DNA from: Hyphomicrobiaceae bacterium
GTDB taxonomy: Bacteria; Pseudomonadota; Alphaproteobacteria; Rhizobiales; Hyphomicrobiaceae
NCBI GenBank assembly: GCA_024281145.1
Contig: JAMXLN010000370.1
Coordinates: 1-51,137 of the forward strand
DNA length: 51,137 bases
Direction: 5' to 3'
Shown here in pieces: positions 38,777 through 46,689 of the stretch (the first letter of the stretch is position 1; every line of letters starts with the position of its first letter). The notes below the pieces were generated by a model that worked only from the letters and a program-made list of their open reading frames with translations, did not search any database and had not been told where the DNA came from. The position numbers and the translations under genes were made by a program.

Positions 38777-39568
38777 CTAGCGCTGCTCCAGCTGCGCATA
38801 AACCGCGCTCGCCAGTCCCATCAGCTCATCGCGGCCAAGCCGACCTGCGATCGCGTAGGCGAGCGGGCGGTCGACCCAGTAGAAGGCGCCAAAGCCGTCG
38901 CGCTCAGCGAATTGGAAGGCAGTGTTGTTGAGCCCCGTCTCCTTGCGCAGGTAGAGCGTGAGCCGCCGGCCGGCGCCGTCCTCGTACATGAATTGGGCTG
39001 CGGGAAGGCCGCGGTCCGGTAGGAGGCGGCCGCCCACCAGTTTCCAGCCCAGCGCCGACAGTGTTGGCGCCCGCACATTGGCGCCGAGGCGCTTGGTCAG
39101 CCACTGCACAAGATGGGTTTCCTCGGCCGCCCCCACCTCCACGGGATGGCGCACCTCCGGCACATAAACGCTGTGCGCACCGATGGCGGTAGCAACGAAT
39201 GCACTCTCCGGCCTGCGGGTCTCCACCGTCAGACCCCGGATGACGTAGCCCGCGGCGGCAGCCAATGCAGCGATCAACACCGCGACGAGCACTTCAATCC
39301 ATCGCCGTGTGGAATGGGAACGCTGACCGGCGACGCGCTCGGGCATGCCCGCCAAGACCTGCTTCATGCGCTCGGGCACAGGCGCGTCGAGCCGGCTCGC
39401 ATAGCGCTGCACGATCGCCTCGTTCAGATCGCGAAAGTCGCGCAGCAGGGCTAGCTCGACCGGACTAGCGGCCAGCAGTGCTTCCATCTCCGCCTGTTCC
39501 TCAGCGGCCAACTCACCGTCGAGGTAGGCATGCAGTTCGGCCTCGCCGATGTGGCGCTCGGGTGTCAT
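38777..39568 (-). CDS. membrane anti-sigma factor
   Basis: The 263-residue product begins with a short helical anti-sigma domain (IGEAELHAYLDGELAAEEQ), lacks the cysteines of zinc-binding anti-sigma domains, and then has one membrane helix (WIEVLVAVLIAALAAAAGYV) and a periplasmic domain (SALGWKLVGGRLLPDRGLPA, GFGAFYWVDRPLAYAIAG). This is a common design for alphaproteobacterial partners of ECF sigma factors. Its ATG overlaps the sigma stop (ATGA), so both are made together. It should hold the sigma factor at the membrane until a signal arrives. Confidence 0.88.
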   Translation of the reverse strand: MTPERHIGEAELHAYLDGELAAEEQAEMEALLAASPVELALLRDFRDLNEAIVQRYASRLDAPVPERMKQVLAGMPERVAGQRSHSTRRWIEVLVAVLIAALAAAAGYVIRGLTVETRRPESAFVATAIGAHSVYVPEVRHPVEVGAAEETHLVQWLTKRLGANVRAPTLSALGWKLVGGRLLPDRGLPAAQFMYEDGAGRRLTLYLRKETGLNNTAFQFAERDGFGAFYWVDRPLAYAIAGRLGRDELMGLASAVYAQLEQR

Positions 39569-40095
39569 TTCACCCTCCGCAGCGAAGCCTGGCCGCTCTT
39601 GCCACCACCCTCAAAGCCGCCTTCATAGCCAAGCAGCGTACGCAAGCGCCCTCGCCCGCGAGCTAAGCGCGACATCACTGTGCCGATGGGAATGGCGAGC
39701 ACCTCGGCCGCCTCGGCATAACTCAAGCCCTCAAGCCCAACCAACAGGACGACCTCGCGTTGTTCGCTCGCCAGCATTTGCAGCGCCCGGTCGAGATCGC
39801 GGCCGCTTGCTCCGTCGGCGGCCGGTGCCGACTGGTCGGCGCCGACGCTGTCAAGACCCACATGCGGCGGTCGGCGCGACTTACGCCTCAGCCCATCAAC
39901 ATGCAGGTTGTGCAGAATCGAAAACAGCCATTTGCGAGGGCTGTCGCCGTCGCGCCATTGCGCCAGCCGGGCCAGCGCCCGCTCCAGCGTATCCTGGATC
40001 AAATCGTCGGCCTCGCCATCATCTCCCGTAAGCGCACGCGCGTAGCGGCGAAGCCTCGGGATTTCGGCTGCAACGGCATCTCCGCGAGATGACAA
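39565..40095 (-). CDS. ECF RNA polymerase sigma factor
   Basis: The sigma-2 region (IPRLRRYARALTGDDGEADDLIQDTLERAL, RKWLFSILHNLHVDGLRR) and sigma-4 region (LASEQREVVLLVGLEGLSYAEAAEVLAIPIGTVMSRLARGRGRL) are clear. Length is 176 residues from TTG 40095, which has GGAAAGG about 8 bases upstream and gives the normal short N-terminus. The track start at ATG 40182 would add 29 unlikely residues. It forms an operon with the overlapping anti-sigma gene and diverges from a cytochrome c' gene. The intergenic region holds GGAATA words on both strands, possible ECF -35 elements, unproven. Confidence 0.9.
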   Translation of the reverse strand: MSSRGDAVAAEIPRLRRYARALTGDDGEADDLIQDTLERALARLAQWRDGDSPRKWLFSILHNLHVDGLRRKSRRPPHVGLDSVGADQSAPAADGASGRDLDRALQMLASEQREVVLLVGLEGLSYAEAAEVLAIPIGTVMSRLARGRGRLRTLLGYEGGFEGGGKSGQASLRRVK

Positions 40096-40359
40096 TGAGA
40101 AGCCTTTCCGCTGAGGACAGACCAAACGATCTGGAGACGACGCAGGGACGCAGTTTATTCCAGCGCGCCCAGGAAGACACACCTATCAGGGACTTTCAAA
40201 ATAAAGTGCACGTCGGAATATTTACAGCCCGGGGTCGCCTAGTATCTTTGCGAAGCGCGGTTTTGAACGCCGCATGATCGGGTGGGCACAGGCGGAGAGC
40301 TCCTTGACGAGCAACCGTCGGCGTGCACCGAAAGCAGATGCTTGACGAGGAGGAAACCC

Positions 40360-40794
40360 ATGCTTCGTGTCGTGGCGGCCATGGCGGCTCTTGCCATCGG
40401 TGCGACGGTCGTTCTGGCTCAGAACGCCGCTGTCATCGAGCAGCGCAAGCAGGCCATGAAGGCGTTTGGAGGGGCGGCCAAGGGACCTGGCGCCATGAGC
40501 AAGGGCGATGCACCCTTTGAGCTGCCCAAAGTCCAAGCCTCGCTCAAGACCATCCAGGAGACGGCCGTCAAGGCGAAAGGCCTATTCCCTGACGATTCCA
40601 AGGTAGGAGAGACCGACGCGTTGCCCGCGGCTTTCGAGAAGAAGGCCGACCTGCTCGCGCGTTTGGACAGTCTTGCTGCGGCCGCGAAGTCCGCAGAAGG
40701 TGCCATCAAGGACGAGGCCACCTTCAAGGCCGAGTGGCCCAAGGTCGTCTCTCAGTGTGGCGGTTGTCACAAGGAATATCGCAAGCCCAAATGA
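40360..40794 (+). CDS. cytochrome c' (class II c-type cytochrome)
   Basis: The 144-residue precursor has a signal peptide (MLRVVAAMAALAIGATVVLA), a four-helix-bundle pattern beginning VIEQRKQAMK and a single C-terminal haem site CGGCHKEYRK (C133, C136, H137). This is typical of class II cytochromes c, periplasmic proteins that bind nitric oxide or carry electrons. GAGGAGG lies 7 bases before the ATG, marking a strong start. It is divergent from the ECF sigma gene. Confidence 0.93.
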   Translation: MLRVVAAMAALAIGATVVLAQNAAVIEQRKQAMKAFGGAAKGPGAMSKGDAPFELPKVQASLKTIQETAVKAKGLFPDDSKVGETDALPAAFEKKADLLARLDSLAAAAKSAEGAIKDEATFKAEWPKVVSQCGGCHKEYRKPK

Positions 40795-40984: not shown

Positions 40985-42073
40985 ATGCGGCTTGCCAAAA
41001 TCTGCGGCTTGCCTACCCTGCGTTGTGTGCTCCCTCAACCGCACATCCTCGCCTACGCGGGCATCGCGCCGAGCCTGGCCAGTCCGCTGCTTCACGCCGG
41101 AGCCGGAGCCGCGTTGCTCGGCCGCATCACGCTCGGGCGCAACGCCTGGATGGGCGCGCTGAGCGTCATCCGCGCCGACGGACATTTCATACGTGTCGGC
41201 GACGAATTCCGGCTGGGCACCCGCGCGACGCTCCACATCAACCACGAGATCTACCCCTGCGTTGTGGGAGACCGCGTCGCCGTCGGCGCCAATGCTTGCG
41301 TGCACGCCTGTACCGTTGGCAGCGACGTCGTGATCGGCGACGGCGCCGTGATCCTCGACGGCGCGGTCCTCGAGGACAACGTGGTCCTGGATCCCGGCGC
41401 CACGGTGTTTCCCAACAAGCGGGTACCGGGCGGCTCGCGCTACGCGGGCAGTCCGGCAAAGCCGGTCGCGCGTCTCGAGAGCGACGAGGTGGCCGCCCGA
41501 CGGAGGGCCATAATCGGCGCGCCCAGCACCGGCGACGAAGCCCTCTGGTTGCGACAGGTGCCGGCCGACGCCTCCAATATTCATCCCAGCGTCTTCATCG
41601 CCGCCACCGCGTCCGTGCGCGGTCGACTCCTTGCCGCCGAGGACGCCAGCATCTGGTACAGCAATGATTTCGATGCCAACAGCGCCACCATCTCGATCGG
41701 CGCGCGCACCAACATCCAGGACAACACGACGATCCGCTGCGCCACGCAACAGGGGGTCAGCATCGGCCACTCCTGTACCGTCGGCCACAACGTGACGATC
41801 CACGACTGTGTCATTGGTAATGAGACGCTGATCGGCATCGGTAGCTGGGTGGCGCCCGGCACCCGGGTCGGCAACCGCGTGTTGCTGGCAGCCGGGGCAC
41901 GCACCACGCCCGGTCAGGTGCTTGAGGACGGGTGGATGTATGCCGGGCGCCCCGCGCGCAAATTTGCCCTGCTCGACGATGCCAAGCTCGCCCTCACCGA
42001 GCTCATCGTTTCACAGTATTGCCAATACGCCCGCGACTTCACGGCGCTCGAGCGGGACGCGCTGGGTGCATAG
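40985..42073 (+). CDS. tandem gamma-carbonic-anhydrase-like protein (two left-handed beta-helix domains)
   Basis: The 362-residue product holds two full gamma-CA/YrdA-like hexapeptide domains: residues about 22-165 (from AYAGIAPSL to GSPAKPVARL) and about 198-331 (from NIHPSVFIA to GRPARKFALL). Ordinary family members are about 170-200 residues with one domain. In the family the metal is held by three histidines: one in 'LHVTH' and two in 'VGHxxxLHGC'. Domain 1 has LHINH (H84) and VHAC (H107) but VGANAC in place of VGH. Domain 2 has VGHNVTIHDC (H268, H273) but IRCAT in place of LH. Start ATG 40985 is chosen because the protein-like composition begins there. Carbonic anhydrase or acyl-related activity is possible; unproven. 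Confidence 0.85.
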   Translation: MRLAKICGLPTLRCVLPQPHILAYAGIAPSLASPLLHAGAGAALLGRITLGRNAWMGALSVIRADGHFIRVGDEFRLGTRATLHINHEIYPCVVGDRVAVGANACVHACTVGSDVVIGDGAVILDGAVLEDNVVLDPGATVFPNKRVPGGSRYAGSPAKPVARLESDEVAARRRAIIGAPSTGDEALWLRQVPADASNIHPSVFIAATASVRGRLLAAEDASIWYSNDFDANSATISIGARTNIQDNTTIRCATQQGVSIGHSCTVGHNVTIHDCVIGNETLIGIGSWVAPGTRVGNRVLLAAGARTTPGQVLEDGWMYAGRPARKFALLDDAKLALTELIVSQYCQYARDFTALERDALGA

Positions 42074-42116: not shown

Positions 42117-43022
42117 TCACACTTCAAGCACCGCTCGGAATTCGCTTGGCGTCATTCCCATTTCGCGTCCGAAAACAGCGGTGAAGCGGCCATGGGAGAG
42201 GCCGACGGCTTTGGCGATCTGCCCGATCGACAAGGTGGCGTCGTGCAACAACGACCGCGCATGCAACAGTCGACATTGGGTCAGGAACTGGTGCGGGCTG
42301 CGGCCCGTGGTGTCTTTGAAGGATTTGGCAAAGTGGAAGAGGCTCATGCCGGCAGCCGCGGCGATGTCCTTGAGCGACATATCAGCATTCAGGTTGGCAA
42401 CGATGAACTCCTGCGCACGTTTCAGTTTGCCCGGGGCCATTGCGGAGATGCGCTCGCTCGGCCGCGGTTGTTCGACGTTGGAATGCGCAACAATGAGATG
42501 CGACGCCAAGTCATGGGCGATCTCCTCGGTGAGCAGGCGACTGGCGTCGGGCTCGGCAATCGCCTTCAAAAGTCTGTGCGCGATGCGTTCCAGAACGAGG
42601 TCGCGGATAATGAAGCGAGGCACAACGTCGACACACGCGGGATCGCGGTCGGCCGCCGTCTCGACCGCTTGTTCGAACAGCTCGCGGTTGAGGAACACCA
42701 GCGCCACGTCACCAGGCTCGTCAAACACCCATCGGGTGGCCGCGTCGGGGGGCAGGATCGAAAGGTGTCCGGCGGCGCCGCGGCCGCTCACCCTCCGCCC
42801 ATGGATGGTGCGCTCCAGGCGCATCTCCTGGCCATAGTTGACCCCAAAGGTCGGCGCGCCGAGCGGCGGAAGGGAAATATCCAGCTTGCCCATCCGGAAA
42901 CGGGATGCGGCCACGCAGCTCCATTGACTTGACGGGCTGACGAGCGTCACCTGCGCCACAGCAAGCCTGTGGACGAGCTCCAACACTGCGTGTTCGGGGC
43001 GCCCCGCTTCGCTCACCGACAT
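42117..43022 (-). CDS. AraC-family transcriptional regulator
   Basis: The 301-residue product has an N-terminal sensing domain of about 190 residues without a recognised ligand motif, and a C-terminal double helix-turn-helix (MSLKDIAAAAGMSLFHFAKSFKDTTGRSPHQFL, LSIGQIAKAVGLSHGRFTAVFGREMGMTPSEFR). GGGGGG lies before the ATG. It resembles AraC regulators whose second helix-turn-helix lacks the usual 'F.d.s.Fsr.Fkr' variants but keeps the fold. Its upstream region carries an inverted repeat and a candidate divergent RNA, which are possible targets. Confidence 0.92.
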   Translation of the reverse strand: MSVSEAGRPEHAVLELVHRLAVAQVTLVSPSSQWSCVAASRFRMGKLDISLPPLGAPTFGVNYGQEMRLERTIHGRRVSGRGAAGHLSILPPDAATRWVFDEPGDVALVFLNRELFEQAVETAADRDPACVDVVPRFIIRDLVLERIAHRLLKAIAEPDASRLLTEEIAHDLASHLIVAHSNVEQPRPSERISAMAPGKLKRAQEFIVANLNADMSLKDIAAAAGMSLFHFAKSFKDTTGRSPHQFLTQCRLLHARSLLHDATLSIGQIAKAVGLSHGRFTAVFGREMGMTPSEFRAVLEV

Positions 43023-43120
43023 TTACCCCCCAAAAAGCCATGCGCCCAGCTGCAAGACCGAATAACGCGGTGGGCCCCGAGCCAGCGGATGCTCCCGGAA
43101 ATATTCCCAAGATCCAGACA

Positions 43121-43144
43121 GCCAACTGGCTGACGGCAGTTGGC
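43121..43144. promoter_or_regulatory. operator-like inverted repeat upstream of araC
   Basis: GCCAACTG and CAGTTGGC are separated by 8 bases, with an overlapping second palindrome CAGCCAACTGGCTG (43119-43132). It lies about 100 bases upstream of the AraC gene start, a usual place for a regulator's own site. Binding by that protein is inference. Confidence 0.45.
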
Positions 43145-43259
43145 AAATTGAGCACCATCAAAACGGTAATGTCTGGGCCGCGCAGGTTGAGGTCGGGGTT
43201 CCAAGTTCAGGTTCCGGTTCAGGCGCCAGTTCCAGGTCCCCGATGGCTGAGGCGATGGG

Positions 43260-43382
43260 CGCTCAGGTCCCGCCCCAACGGGGCCAAACGGGAGAATGTT
43301 CAGGCAGTCTCTTTACCCCGCACCGGAGAATGCCTGATCAGGAGGACGACAACGGCCAAGGCCGGGTCGTCCTCTTTTTCTT
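43260..43382 (+). ncRNA. candidate small RNA ending in an intrinsic terminator
   Basis: No coding gene is seen upstream on this strand, yet the segment ends in a strong plus-strand terminator. Before it lie a GCCCC/GGGGC hairpin (43272-43284) and a longer hairpin TCAGGCA-G-TCTC ... GAGA-A-TGCCTGA (43300-43337). The 5' end is not visible and is given only roughly. The family is unknown. It reads away from the divergent AraC gene. Confidence 0.45.
43342..43382 (+). terminator. strong Rho-independent terminator with no upstream gene
   Basis: GAGGACGAC pairs with GTCGTCCTC (9 bp), extended by an inner CGGCC/GGCCG stem with an AA loop, and followed directly by TTTTTCTT on the plus strand. On the minus strand the stem is followed by CTGATC, so it works in one direction only. 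Confidence 0.85.
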
Positions 43383-43474
43383 CATGCCGCAATGGATCGC
43401 AGCCAAACCATAGACCCACCCTTGGCCCCTGAGCCCGCCCCTCAAGCCCGGCAACTGCCTAATCCGACGCTGCC

Positions 43475-44581
43475 CTAGCCCGCCAACATCCCCGCCACCA
43501 TCTCGCCAATGGCGAGCGATGCCGTGAGCCCGGGGCTCTCGATGCCATAGAGGGCGACAAGGCCACTTTGCCCATGGACCTGTGGACCATGGATGGCAAA
43601 ATCAGGCACCGGGTCGCCCGCTCGGTAAAGCTTGGGACGAATGCCCGTGTAGTCGGGGTGTAGGCGCTCCATCTGCAGGCCGGGATAGTAGCTGCGGATG
43701 AGATTGAGGAATTGGCCAAGCTTCTGCGCCTCAAAGCCGTAATCGATGTCCGGGATCCACGCGATGTCAGGGCCGAACTTGCAGCGGCCGCCCACGTCCA
43801 CGGTGGCATGCAGCCCGAGCCAGGCGCCATCGGGCATGGGATAGATGTGGCGCTTGAAGGGCGACCGACCGGACAACGCATAATATTGCCCCTTGGCATA
43901 GTAGGTCTCCGGCGGCCGATATTGGGCACCGAAGGCGAACGTGCGAGCAAGCCTCGTGGCATGCAAGCCAGCACAGACAACAAGATGCCGGCAGGTGATG
44001 GTGCCACTGTCACCCGCGGTTGCCAGTCGAAAGCCGCCGCCGGCCGCCTGCTCGATCCGCTCGACCGGACAGCGCAAGACCACCAAGCCGCCGTTGGCCT
44101 CGATGTGTCCCTCAAGGGCCAGCATGAAAGCGTGGCTGTCGATGATGCCGGTTGAAGGGGACAGAAGTGCAGCCACACAGGCAATTTCCGGCTCCAGTGC
44201 GTGGGCCGCAGCGGCAGCCAGCGGCTCCAGATCCGTGACGCCGTTCTTGATGGCGGTCTCACGGATGGCCGCAAGCTTGGGCACCTGGCTCTCGTTGGTC
44301 GCCACCAGCAGCTTGCCGCAGCGTGCATGGGCCACGCCGTTGTCGGCACAAAAGGCATAGAGGAGCTCCTTGCCCCGCACACACAACTTTGCTCGCAGGC
44401 TGCCCGGCGGATAGTAGATCCCAGCATGGATCACCTCGCTGTTGCGCGAGGACGTCTCCGAGCCGATCAGCTCATGCTGCTCCAGCACCATCGTCTCATG
44501 ACCGGCAAGGCTCAGAGCCCGCGCGACCGCGAGCCCGACGACACCGGCACCCACCACAATGGTCTCTACGTCCGCTGACAT
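43475..44581 (-). CDS. FAD-dependent oxidoreductase, L-2-hydroxyglutarate oxidase (LhgO)-like
   Basis: The 368-residue product has the FAD-binding start IVVGAGVVGLAVARALSLAG, the DAO-family SSRNSEVIHAGIYYPPGSLRAKLC segment typical of LhgO-type enzymes, GIIDSHAFMLALEGHIEANGG, and the end HGQSGLVALYGIESPGLTASLAIGE. These oxidise 2-hydroxyacids or related compounds. The track gives the same start, with GGTGAG before it. The substrate is assigned only by resemblance. Confidence 0.85.
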   Translation of the reverse strand: MSADVETIVVGAGVVGLAVARALSLAGHETMVLEQHELIGSETSSRNSEVIHAGIYYPPGSLRAKLCVRGKELLYAFCADNGVAHARCGKLLVATNESQVPKLAAIRETAIKNGVTDLEPLAAAAAHALEPEIACVAALLSPSTGIIDSHAFMLALEGHIEANGGLVVLRCPVERIEQAAGGGFRLATAGDSGTITCRHLVVCAGLHATRLARTFAFGAQYRPPETYYAKGQYYALSGRSPFKRHIYPMPDGAWLGLHATVDVGGRCKFGPDIAWIPDIDYGFEAQKLGQFLNLIRSYYPGLQMERLHPDYTGIRPKLYRAGDPVPDFAIHGPQVHGQSGLVALYGIESPGLTASLAIGEMVAGMLAG

Positions 44582-44809
44582 GGGCTCACCCCGTGCGGGT
44601 CTTCTTCAGCTGGCGCCATCTCGCAATCCCCCCTGCCCCGGAACGCAGGCCGGACCCATGCCTCCGCCCGCCGGCCGCCGACGTCAAGGGGCTTGCCTTC
44701 GGGACAAACAAAGAACATACCATGCACAAACGTTCCGAGGCGACTCACGCTAAGTCTCGAGCGGAGCCGTTGGAGCAGACACAAAACAACCATCACAGGA
44801 GGGCCCATC

Positions 44810-45937
44810 ATGAGCGTGTTCCATCCCTCGCCGAGCCCGTTCAAAGCCCACAGGCACAGAGCGGACGATCTTTGCCCCTTGTGCGAACAACCCATCGCCC
44901 AAGACCTCGTCCGGCGCATCGAGCTGCGGCAACAGGAACAGCAGCGCGCGTCCCTTGCACAGGCCCGCGCCGAGGCCGAGGCCAAGGTTGAACCGCGCAT
45001 TGCAGCCGCCCTGGCCGAGGCCAACAAGGCAGCCGAAGCGGCGATGCTGAGCAAGCTCGCAGACTTCCAGGCCAAGCTTGTTGTGGCCGAACACGCTCAG
45101 ATCAGCGCGCAAAAGGAGATAGCCGCACTGAAGGCAGCGCATGACGCCGCGATCGAGCTGCGCGTTGAAGAGCGCGCCGCAACCCTCAAGGAGGAGAGGG
45201 ATGCGGCCGTTCTCGCTGAGCGGACGAGAGCATTTGAAGAAACGCAGGCCTTGCGCCAGAAGCTTGAAGATCTCACCCGCAAGCTCGAGGGCAAATCGGC
45301 CCATGAGCTGGGTGAGGGCTCCGAGATCGACCTCTTTGAGCAGCTGCGCGATGCCTTTCAGGCCGACCGCATCCAACGCGTTCCCAAGGGCGTCAACGGC
45401 GCGGACGTGATCCACGAGGTTGTGCACAACGGGCGCATCTGCGGCAAGATCATCTACGACGCTAAGAACCGCGATTCTTGGCAGAACGGGTTTGCGACCA
45501 AGCTCAGAGCCGACAAGCTCTCCCAGTCTGCGGATCACGCCATTCTCTCAAGCAACAAGTTCCCGAAGGACAAGAGTCAGATCCACACACAGGACGGCGT
45601 GATCGTCGCCAATCCTGCACGCGTGTTGGTCATTGCCGAGATCCTGCGCGAGCAGATCGTGCGCATGCATGCGCTGCGCGCCAGCAAGGAAGCGCGCGAG
45701 GAGAAGACCGTGGCCCTCTACGCCTTCGTCACCTCCGACCACTTCAAGCAGCTGGTTGAGCAGGTGGAGGCGCAAACGGGCAAGATGCTGGAGCTCGACA
45801 ATAAGGAACAGGAAGCGCACCGACGCGTTTGGGACCAGCGCGGCAAGCTGATCCGCACGATCCAGAATGCGCGCGCCGATCTTACCTTCGAGGTCGACCG
45901 CATCATCGGCACGGCCGGCAACGGGCCGCAGGCTTAG
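44810..45937 (+). CDS. DUF2130 protein, coiled coil plus nuclease-like domain
   Basis: The 375-residue product has an N-terminal CPLCEQPI half zinc knuckle, a long coiled coil (about 35-165) and a C-terminal domain with EIDLFEQLRDAF, GADVIHEVV, CGKIIYDAKN and KLRADKLSQSADHAILSSNKFPK. E177, D199 and D217-A-K219 are arranged like a PD-(D/E)xK nuclease core, and the layout recalls RmuC. DUF2130 proteins have no settled function. AGGAGGG lies about 8 bases before ATG 44810; the track start (44693) is too early. It is a single gene. Confidence 0.85.
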   Translation: MSVFHPSPSPFKAHRHRADDLCPLCEQPIAQDLVRRIELRQQEQQRASLAQARAEAEAKVEPRIAAALAEANKAAEAAMLSKLADFQAKLVVAEHAQISAQKEIAALKAAHDAAIELRVEERAATLKEERDAAVLAERTRAFEETQALRQKLEDLTRKLEGKSAHELGEGSEIDLFEQLRDAFQADRIQRVPKGVNGADVIHEVVHNGRICGKIIYDAKNRDSWQNGFATKLRADKLSQSADHAILSSNKFPKDKSQIHTQDGVIVANPARVLVIAEILREQIVRMHALRASKEAREEKTVALYAFVTSDHFKQLVEQVEAQTGKMLELDNKEQEAHRRVWDQRGKLIRTIQNARADLTFEVDRIIGTAGNGPQA

Positions 45938-45982
45938 TCGTCATCCCCGTTTTGTGCCCTCGCGCACTTGTGCAGGGCGCGT

Positions 45983-46004
45983 AAACTGCGCCCCGCTGGC
46001 GCAG
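45983..46004 (-). terminator. possible terminator after rpe
   Basis: On the minus strand CTGCGCC/GGCGCAG (7 bp, 5-base loop) is followed by TTT, 23 bases after the rpe stop. The T-run is short, so efficiency is doubtful. Confidence 0.4.
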
Positions 46005-46026
46005 TCCCAAGAAACAACCGAGGACG

Positions 46027-46689
<663 letters not shown>

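Follow-up and report, generated by a model that had tools for sequence, protein, structure and literature searches.

The 51,137-nucleotide stretch of Hyphomicrobiaceae DNA analysed here (the window) encodes a 362-residue protein, P0001, in which two gamma-carbonic-anhydrase (gamma-CA)-like domains are joined in one chain and the active-site residues of the family are divided between them. Based on this pattern of residue retention, we consider it highly probable that P0001 is a gamma-CA-fold metalloenzyme that arose by duplication and fusion of one ancestral subunit and a later division of its active site, leaving one composite site per chain between domain 1 (D1) and domain 2 (D2). The division of one active site would be completed inside one chain and, if this is true, only the mixed interface can work. 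On this reading, a gamma-CA pared down to two helices and a single site should exist, and it would offer a clean test of what each subunit contributes and of the need for a trimer.

The fused protein and its divided active site

The features of the gene are as follows, with equivalent residues in Cam numbering and counts among the fused proteins compared.

40985..42073 (+): P0001, double gamma-CA-like protein, 362 aa; open frame, each half matched in Pfam and in the PDB, AF2 model
41045..41473 (+): D1, residues ~21-163, left-handed beta-helix; defined by alignment with 30 single-domain controls and 45 fused proteins
41171..41179 (+): R63-A64-D65, equivalent to Cam R59 and D61, retained by D1 (each 45/45)
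41234..41236 (+): H84, equivalent to Cam H81, putative first metal ligand, from D1 (45/45)
41288..41290 (+): A102 at the Cam H117 position, second ligand lost from D1 (His in 1/45)
41303..41305 (+): H107, equivalent to Cam H122, putative third metal ligand, from D1 (45/45)
41474..41575 (+): linker, residues ~164-197, with a short helix at 168-178 and low confidence at ~184-186 (AF2)
41576..42070 (+): D2, residues ~198-362, left-handed beta-helix with a C-terminal helix at 332-359; alignments and AF2
41711..41725 (+): N243-I-Q245-D246-N247, of which N243, Q245 and D246 are equivalent to Cam N73, Q75 and D76, retained by D2 (each 45/45)
41786..41788 (+): H268, equivalent to Cam H117, putative second metal ligand, from D2 (45/45)
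41801..41803 (+): H273, D2 residue at the Cam H122 position, redundant in P0001 (His in 4/45)
42017..42019 (+): Y345, Tyr of the C-terminal helix, retained by D2 alone (D2 44/44; D1 0/27)

The two gamma-CA-like beta-helix domains proposed in a sequence-only reading of this DNA are borne out by Pfam, which finds hexapeptide repeats in each half, and by separate PDB matches of the halves. In phmmer searches, residues 21-165 matched 3r1w (E 5e-26) and residues 202-351 matched 4n27 (E 4e-24), with YrdA also among the matches, and the left-handed parallel beta-helix of gamma-class carbonic anhydrases was found by AF2, Foldseek and phmmer. P0001 did not reach the curated cut-offs of the NCBIfam gamma-class CA model NF050158 (165.5 bits vs 250), of PaaY TIGR02287 (89.5 bits vs 319.6) or of the NCBIfam model for CaiE (74.5 vs 305). 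The start of P0001 is uncertain, because residues 1-14 are predicted to be disordered in the AF2 model and are missing from most homologs; the frame may plausibly begin at GTG 41027 instead of 40985.

The same reading had assigned the first and third family histidines to D1 and the second and third to D2, and the alignment confirms this: D1 has H84 and H107 with A102 at the H117 position, and D2 has H268 and H273 with R251 at the H81 position. The split is wider than the histidines, covering R59, D61, N73, Q75, D76 and the Tyr as well. In P0001, R76, G78 and T79 of D1 stand at Cam N73, Q75 and D76, and D230 and N232 of D2 stand at R59 and D61. Neither domain alone carries the full three-His set, and a site of the family type, with two His from one partner and one from its neighbour, would be complete only across D1 (H84, H107) and D2 (H268). 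N247 is also invariant in alignment A1 (27 members).

These residues were followed through 45 distinct fused proteins (P0001 and 44 relatives), with a mean pairwise identity of 0.41 and a minimum of 0.19. Nine of the 24 invariant columns in this set are the retained active-site residues. At the complementary positions, the canonical residue was kept in D1 at N73 in 0/45, at Q75 in 0/45 and at H117 in 1/45, and in D2 at R59 in 7/44, at D61 in 0/44, at H81 in 1/45 and at H122 in 4/45; at the D76 position of D1, counted on 53 unreduced rows outside the 45-protein count, Asp was found in 7. Reduction to 23 sequences below 60% identity left the picture unchanged. All split positions were kept in the 30 single-domain gamma-CA controls, except that one control had Ser at N73 and seven had Glu at D76. 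The split is therefore not a chance pattern, since nine retained residues are invariant in 45 proteins and the complementary positions are almost always lost. The sequence-only reading had suggested looking for other fusions with conserved complementary losses, and across this set they are conserved; no fused homolog has lost the same His from both halves, all of them keeping H81 and H122 in D1 and H117 in D2. Its central proposal, a mixed interface at which the first and third ligands come from D1 and the second from D2, gains support from this retention in every homolog. The D2 residue H273 appears dispensable, with His kept at its position in only four proteins, as the composite-site model predicts. 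The single fused homolog with His at the H117 position of D1 is L096, from genome G1200 (VGHYALVHGC).

Distribution and origin of the fusion

Genome searches placed the fusion in G002 (73% identical), G065, a Pseudorhodoplanes MAG and about 20 more genomes of the window's order. In a second order of the same class (L108-L118, the order of G839), it was present in 10/10 near-complete genomes, some of only 1.5-1.7 Mb. Plasmid-borne copies occur in Xanthobacter autotrophicus Py2 (Xaut_5022), Agrobacterium deltaense and Methylobacterium bullatum, and in the betaproteobacterium Methylibium petroleiphilum PM1. Taken together, these relatives point to a place for the window in the Alphaproteobacteria. 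Chance or an assembly artefact is ruled out, since the fusion is found again in tens of genomes as well as on complete plasmids. Two partial matches that resembled lone D1 halves (G1190, G1179) sit at contig ends and thus provide no evidence of separate halves. An additional N-terminal domain of ~100 aa is present in some of the fusions (L065, 8698-9090; L011; L052; L053), and in Methylibium (L067, 6337-6591) a similar-looking 84-aa protein is encoded by a separate gene in the same cluster; the two of these that were tested gave no Pfam match.

In a maximum-likelihood tree, D1 formed a single clade (100/100), as did D2 (98/87), and both clades were unchanged when the catalytic columns were removed (100/99 and 99/87, respectively); L063_D1 is a very long branch. 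Independent fusions are unnecessary as an explanation, as each domain forms one clade even without the catalytic columns. The simplest history is a single ancient duplication and fusion, after which the active site was divided, and the tree agrees with one origin of the fusion. Our literature searches, which covered few subscription papers, returned no paper apparently describing the fusion, and within the limited scope of the literature and solved structures searched we found no description of a single-chain gamma-CA with a strict two-sided division of its active site.

Interface geometry and packing of the two domains

In gamma-CAs, the metal is bound by H81 and H122 of one subunit together with H117 of the adjacent one (PMC4519908; PMC7447434), as in CA_D, where the ligands are His64 of chain A, His89 of chain B and His94 of chain A (PMC7199487). 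In our reading of the hexapeptide register in the alignment, R59, D61, H81 and H122 would lie on one face of the helix (face k), and N73, Q75, D76 and H117 on face k+2. D1 retains face k and D2 face k+2, and these two faces would therefore be expected to meet at one subunit interface. Conservation of the surrounding surface follows the same division. Among outward-pointing columns of the fused set, with catalytic columns excluded, mean entropy in D1 was 1.07 on face k, 1.84 on face k+2 and 1.91 on the outer face (k vs k+2, permutation p 0.004), and in D2 it was 0.68 on face k+2 and 2.07 on both face k and the outer face (p 5e-5), the p values serving only as guides since columns were permuted with no account taken of relatedness. 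In the single-domain controls, faces k and k+2 are both conserved and k+1 is more variable. The two other interface faces of the trimer (D1 face k+2, D2 face k) are, as judged from these alignments, freed of constraint.

An AF2 model of P0001, computed from its sequence and 22 homologs with four rows from annotated records left out, gave a pLDDT of 90.6 and a pTM of 0.89; for the distant homolog L060 the pTM was 0.82, with lower confidence in D2. By our own estimate, two unplaced domains of such size would give a pTM near 0.5, and the relative placement of D1 and D2 is therefore confidently predicted; the predicted packing inside one chain rests on this pTM. Nearly all Foldseek matches of the model were single gamma-CA chains, with a query TM of ~0.4, corresponding to one domain, and target TM values mostly of 0.8-0.9. 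None of the 50 Foldseek matches listed is a solved structure in which two domains are arranged in the same way. The longest alignment among the matches listed (428 columns) was to PDB 3c8v, a putative acetyltransferase from Desulfovibrio, which differs from P0001 in its arrangement (rmsd 10.1 Angstrom, 13% identity).

In the proposed mechanism, D1 would supply the face with H84, H107, R63 and D65, and D2 the opposing face with H268, N243, Q245, D246 and Y345. The two would dock like neighbouring Cam subunits to give one three-histidine metal site per chain, any pairing other than D1-D2 would leave the site incomplete, and the bound metal, probably Zn2+, would activate water. On balance, D1 more likely packs on D2 of its own chain and forms no canonical trimer; a swapped dimer or a mixed trimer is possible. 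The mixed assembly need not be trimeric, and the evidence is tilted towards a unit of two domains that share a single site.

In the mixed-trimer alternative, domains of different chains would form canonical three-helix trimers, the only complete sites being those between a D1 and a D2; three chains could give D1-D1-D2 plus D2-D2-D1, or D1-D2 could combine with an ordinary gamma-CA. Characterised gamma-CAs are trimers (PMC4519908), the plant complex I heterotrimer has one complete site only (PMC7567890), and the genome itself encodes an ordinary gamma-CA-like protein (L004). The unused face of D2 is also not fully polar: its charge is 0.27, less than the 0.39 of the outer face, so that a third partner could bind there. 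However, the unused faces of both domains vary as much as the outer face, and AF2 packed a single chain confidently on its own, which makes such trimers unlikely in our view. Another alternative, also raised by the sequence-only reading, is that both halves are dead, with no metal site in either domain and a structural or binding role only. Each half does lack the full active-site set, and plant CAL subunits persist despite lost ligands (PMC7447434), but in dead domains the loss of active-site residues should follow no pattern, whereas here all nine are invariant down to 19% identity and are split by interface face. We regard a dead scaffold as highly improbable.

The composite site has parallels in known systems. 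In the literature cited here, gamma-CA sites lie between identical or separately encoded trimer subunits. Like the Cam/CamH and YrdA-type homotrimers, P0001 has the left-handed beta-helix (Foldseek) and, when D1 and D2 are read together, the same three His, R59, D61, N73, Q75, D76 and Tyr; unlike them, it has two domains per chain with half a site each and one possible site per chain, and its trimer-forming faces are unconserved. In CA1/CA2/CAL of plant complex I, paralogous domains have likewise lost ligands, and zinc is bound at one of three interfaces (PMC7447434, PMC7567890), with acyl-CoA at another (PMC9873573). This heterotrimer is a precedent for the division of ligands between D1 and D2, but it consists of separate subunits forming a trimer on complex I, whereas the fusion is bacterial and single-chain and shows strict complementary loss on both sides.

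Gene neighbourhoods and the possible reaction

The 2-hydroxyisobutyryl-CoA mutase pathway degrades fuel-ether metabolites. An hcmB-hcl-meaB-hcmA cluster accompanies the fusion gene in Xanthobacter, Agrobacterium, Methylibium and several other genomes. At six loci (L064, L065, L067, L069, L078 and L122), the gene lies inside an hcm-type cluster (GntR, hcmB, CoA ligase, meaB, hcmA), with an adenosyltransferase in 5/6 and a TPP enzyme also in L067, L078 and L122; a related, rearranged set beside the fusion at L077 brings the hcm-type loci to seven. One paper on such clusters does not mention a carbonic anhydrase (PMC7176365). The association is limited to these seven loci: the window's gene is outside such clusters, and the neighbours in other lineages differ. 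Next to the gene there is no hcmA, hcmB, hcl or meaB, there is no hcm match elsewhere in the window, and none of the genome's own mutases exceeds 44% identity to HcmA. No operon is conserved in all fusion members, the seven hcm-type loci being joined by a GGT-PhyH-DRL context in L115-L118 and different neighbours elsewhere; in L115-L118 the fusion adjoins the GGT, PhyH and DRL-type genes.

The fusion recurs within or next to 2-hydroxyisobutyryl-CoA mutase clusters, suggesting that an accessory step is missing from the pathway as described. PaaY, which shares the gamma-CA fold, is a thioesterase that requires Zn to hydrolyse acyl-CoA and releases CoA that has become trapped; some orthologs also show carbonic anhydrase activity (PMC11110157; PMC467105). 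In addition, butyryl- or crotonyl-CoA has been found at a gamma-CA interface of Arabidopsis complex I (PMC9873573). Acyl-CoA hydrolysis is therefore plausible in the hcm-type setting by analogy, with CO2 hydration about as likely. PaaY acts on CoA esters, and its gene belongs to a catabolic cluster that depends on CoA. The PaaY and CaiE models, which share the fold, match every one of the 27 members of alignment A1, but PaaY, unlike the fusion, is a single-domain homotrimer. For the reaction itself, we tentatively put forward a PaaY-like acyl-CoA thioesterase that would recover CoA; CO2 hydration is a somewhat weaker candidate, and another hydrolysis seems rather unlikely.

It could also be that the composite site serves as a carbonic anhydrase only, converting CO2 to bicarbonate with no role in acyl-CoA metabolism, the hcm-type clusters being incidental. 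The varying gene context of the fusion fits such a role, as do R59 (in D1), N73 and Q75 (in D2) and the Tyr, which are kept across both halves, with R59, N73 and Q75 all present and invariant in the fused proteins; these residues line the site in active gamma-CAs (PMC4519908; PMC9873573). The repeated location in or beside genes for 2-hydroxyacyl-CoA mutase, ligase and TPP enzymes speaks against it, which leaves a carbonic anhydrase role alone doubtful. To our knowledge, no step in these clusters requires bicarbonate. The full picture we propose, a gamma-CA-fold enzyme that has given up trimerisation, with one composite site in a chain of two unlike beta-helices, with its other trimer faces exposed to solvent and, in some lineages, with a part in a B12-dependent 2-hydroxyacyl-CoA pathway, has in our judgement an even chance of being right.

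In the window, an AraC-type regulator (Pfam) lies downstream of P0001 on the opposite strand, and the genome's ordinary gamma-CA-like gene (L004) is a separate gene. A cytochrome c' gene (40282-40794, +) lies directly upstream on the same strand. The region 42117-46689 holds the AraC regulator, an FAD-dependent (DAO) oxidoreductase, the 44810 frame and a ribulose-phosphate epimerase-like gene, an order that, by reading only, looks retained next to the fusion in G002 (L068). Further upstream, 38777-40182 (-) holds an ECF-type sigma factor (39565-40182) and a likely anti-sigma factor (38777-39568), the latter with a zf-HC2 match just below cut-off.
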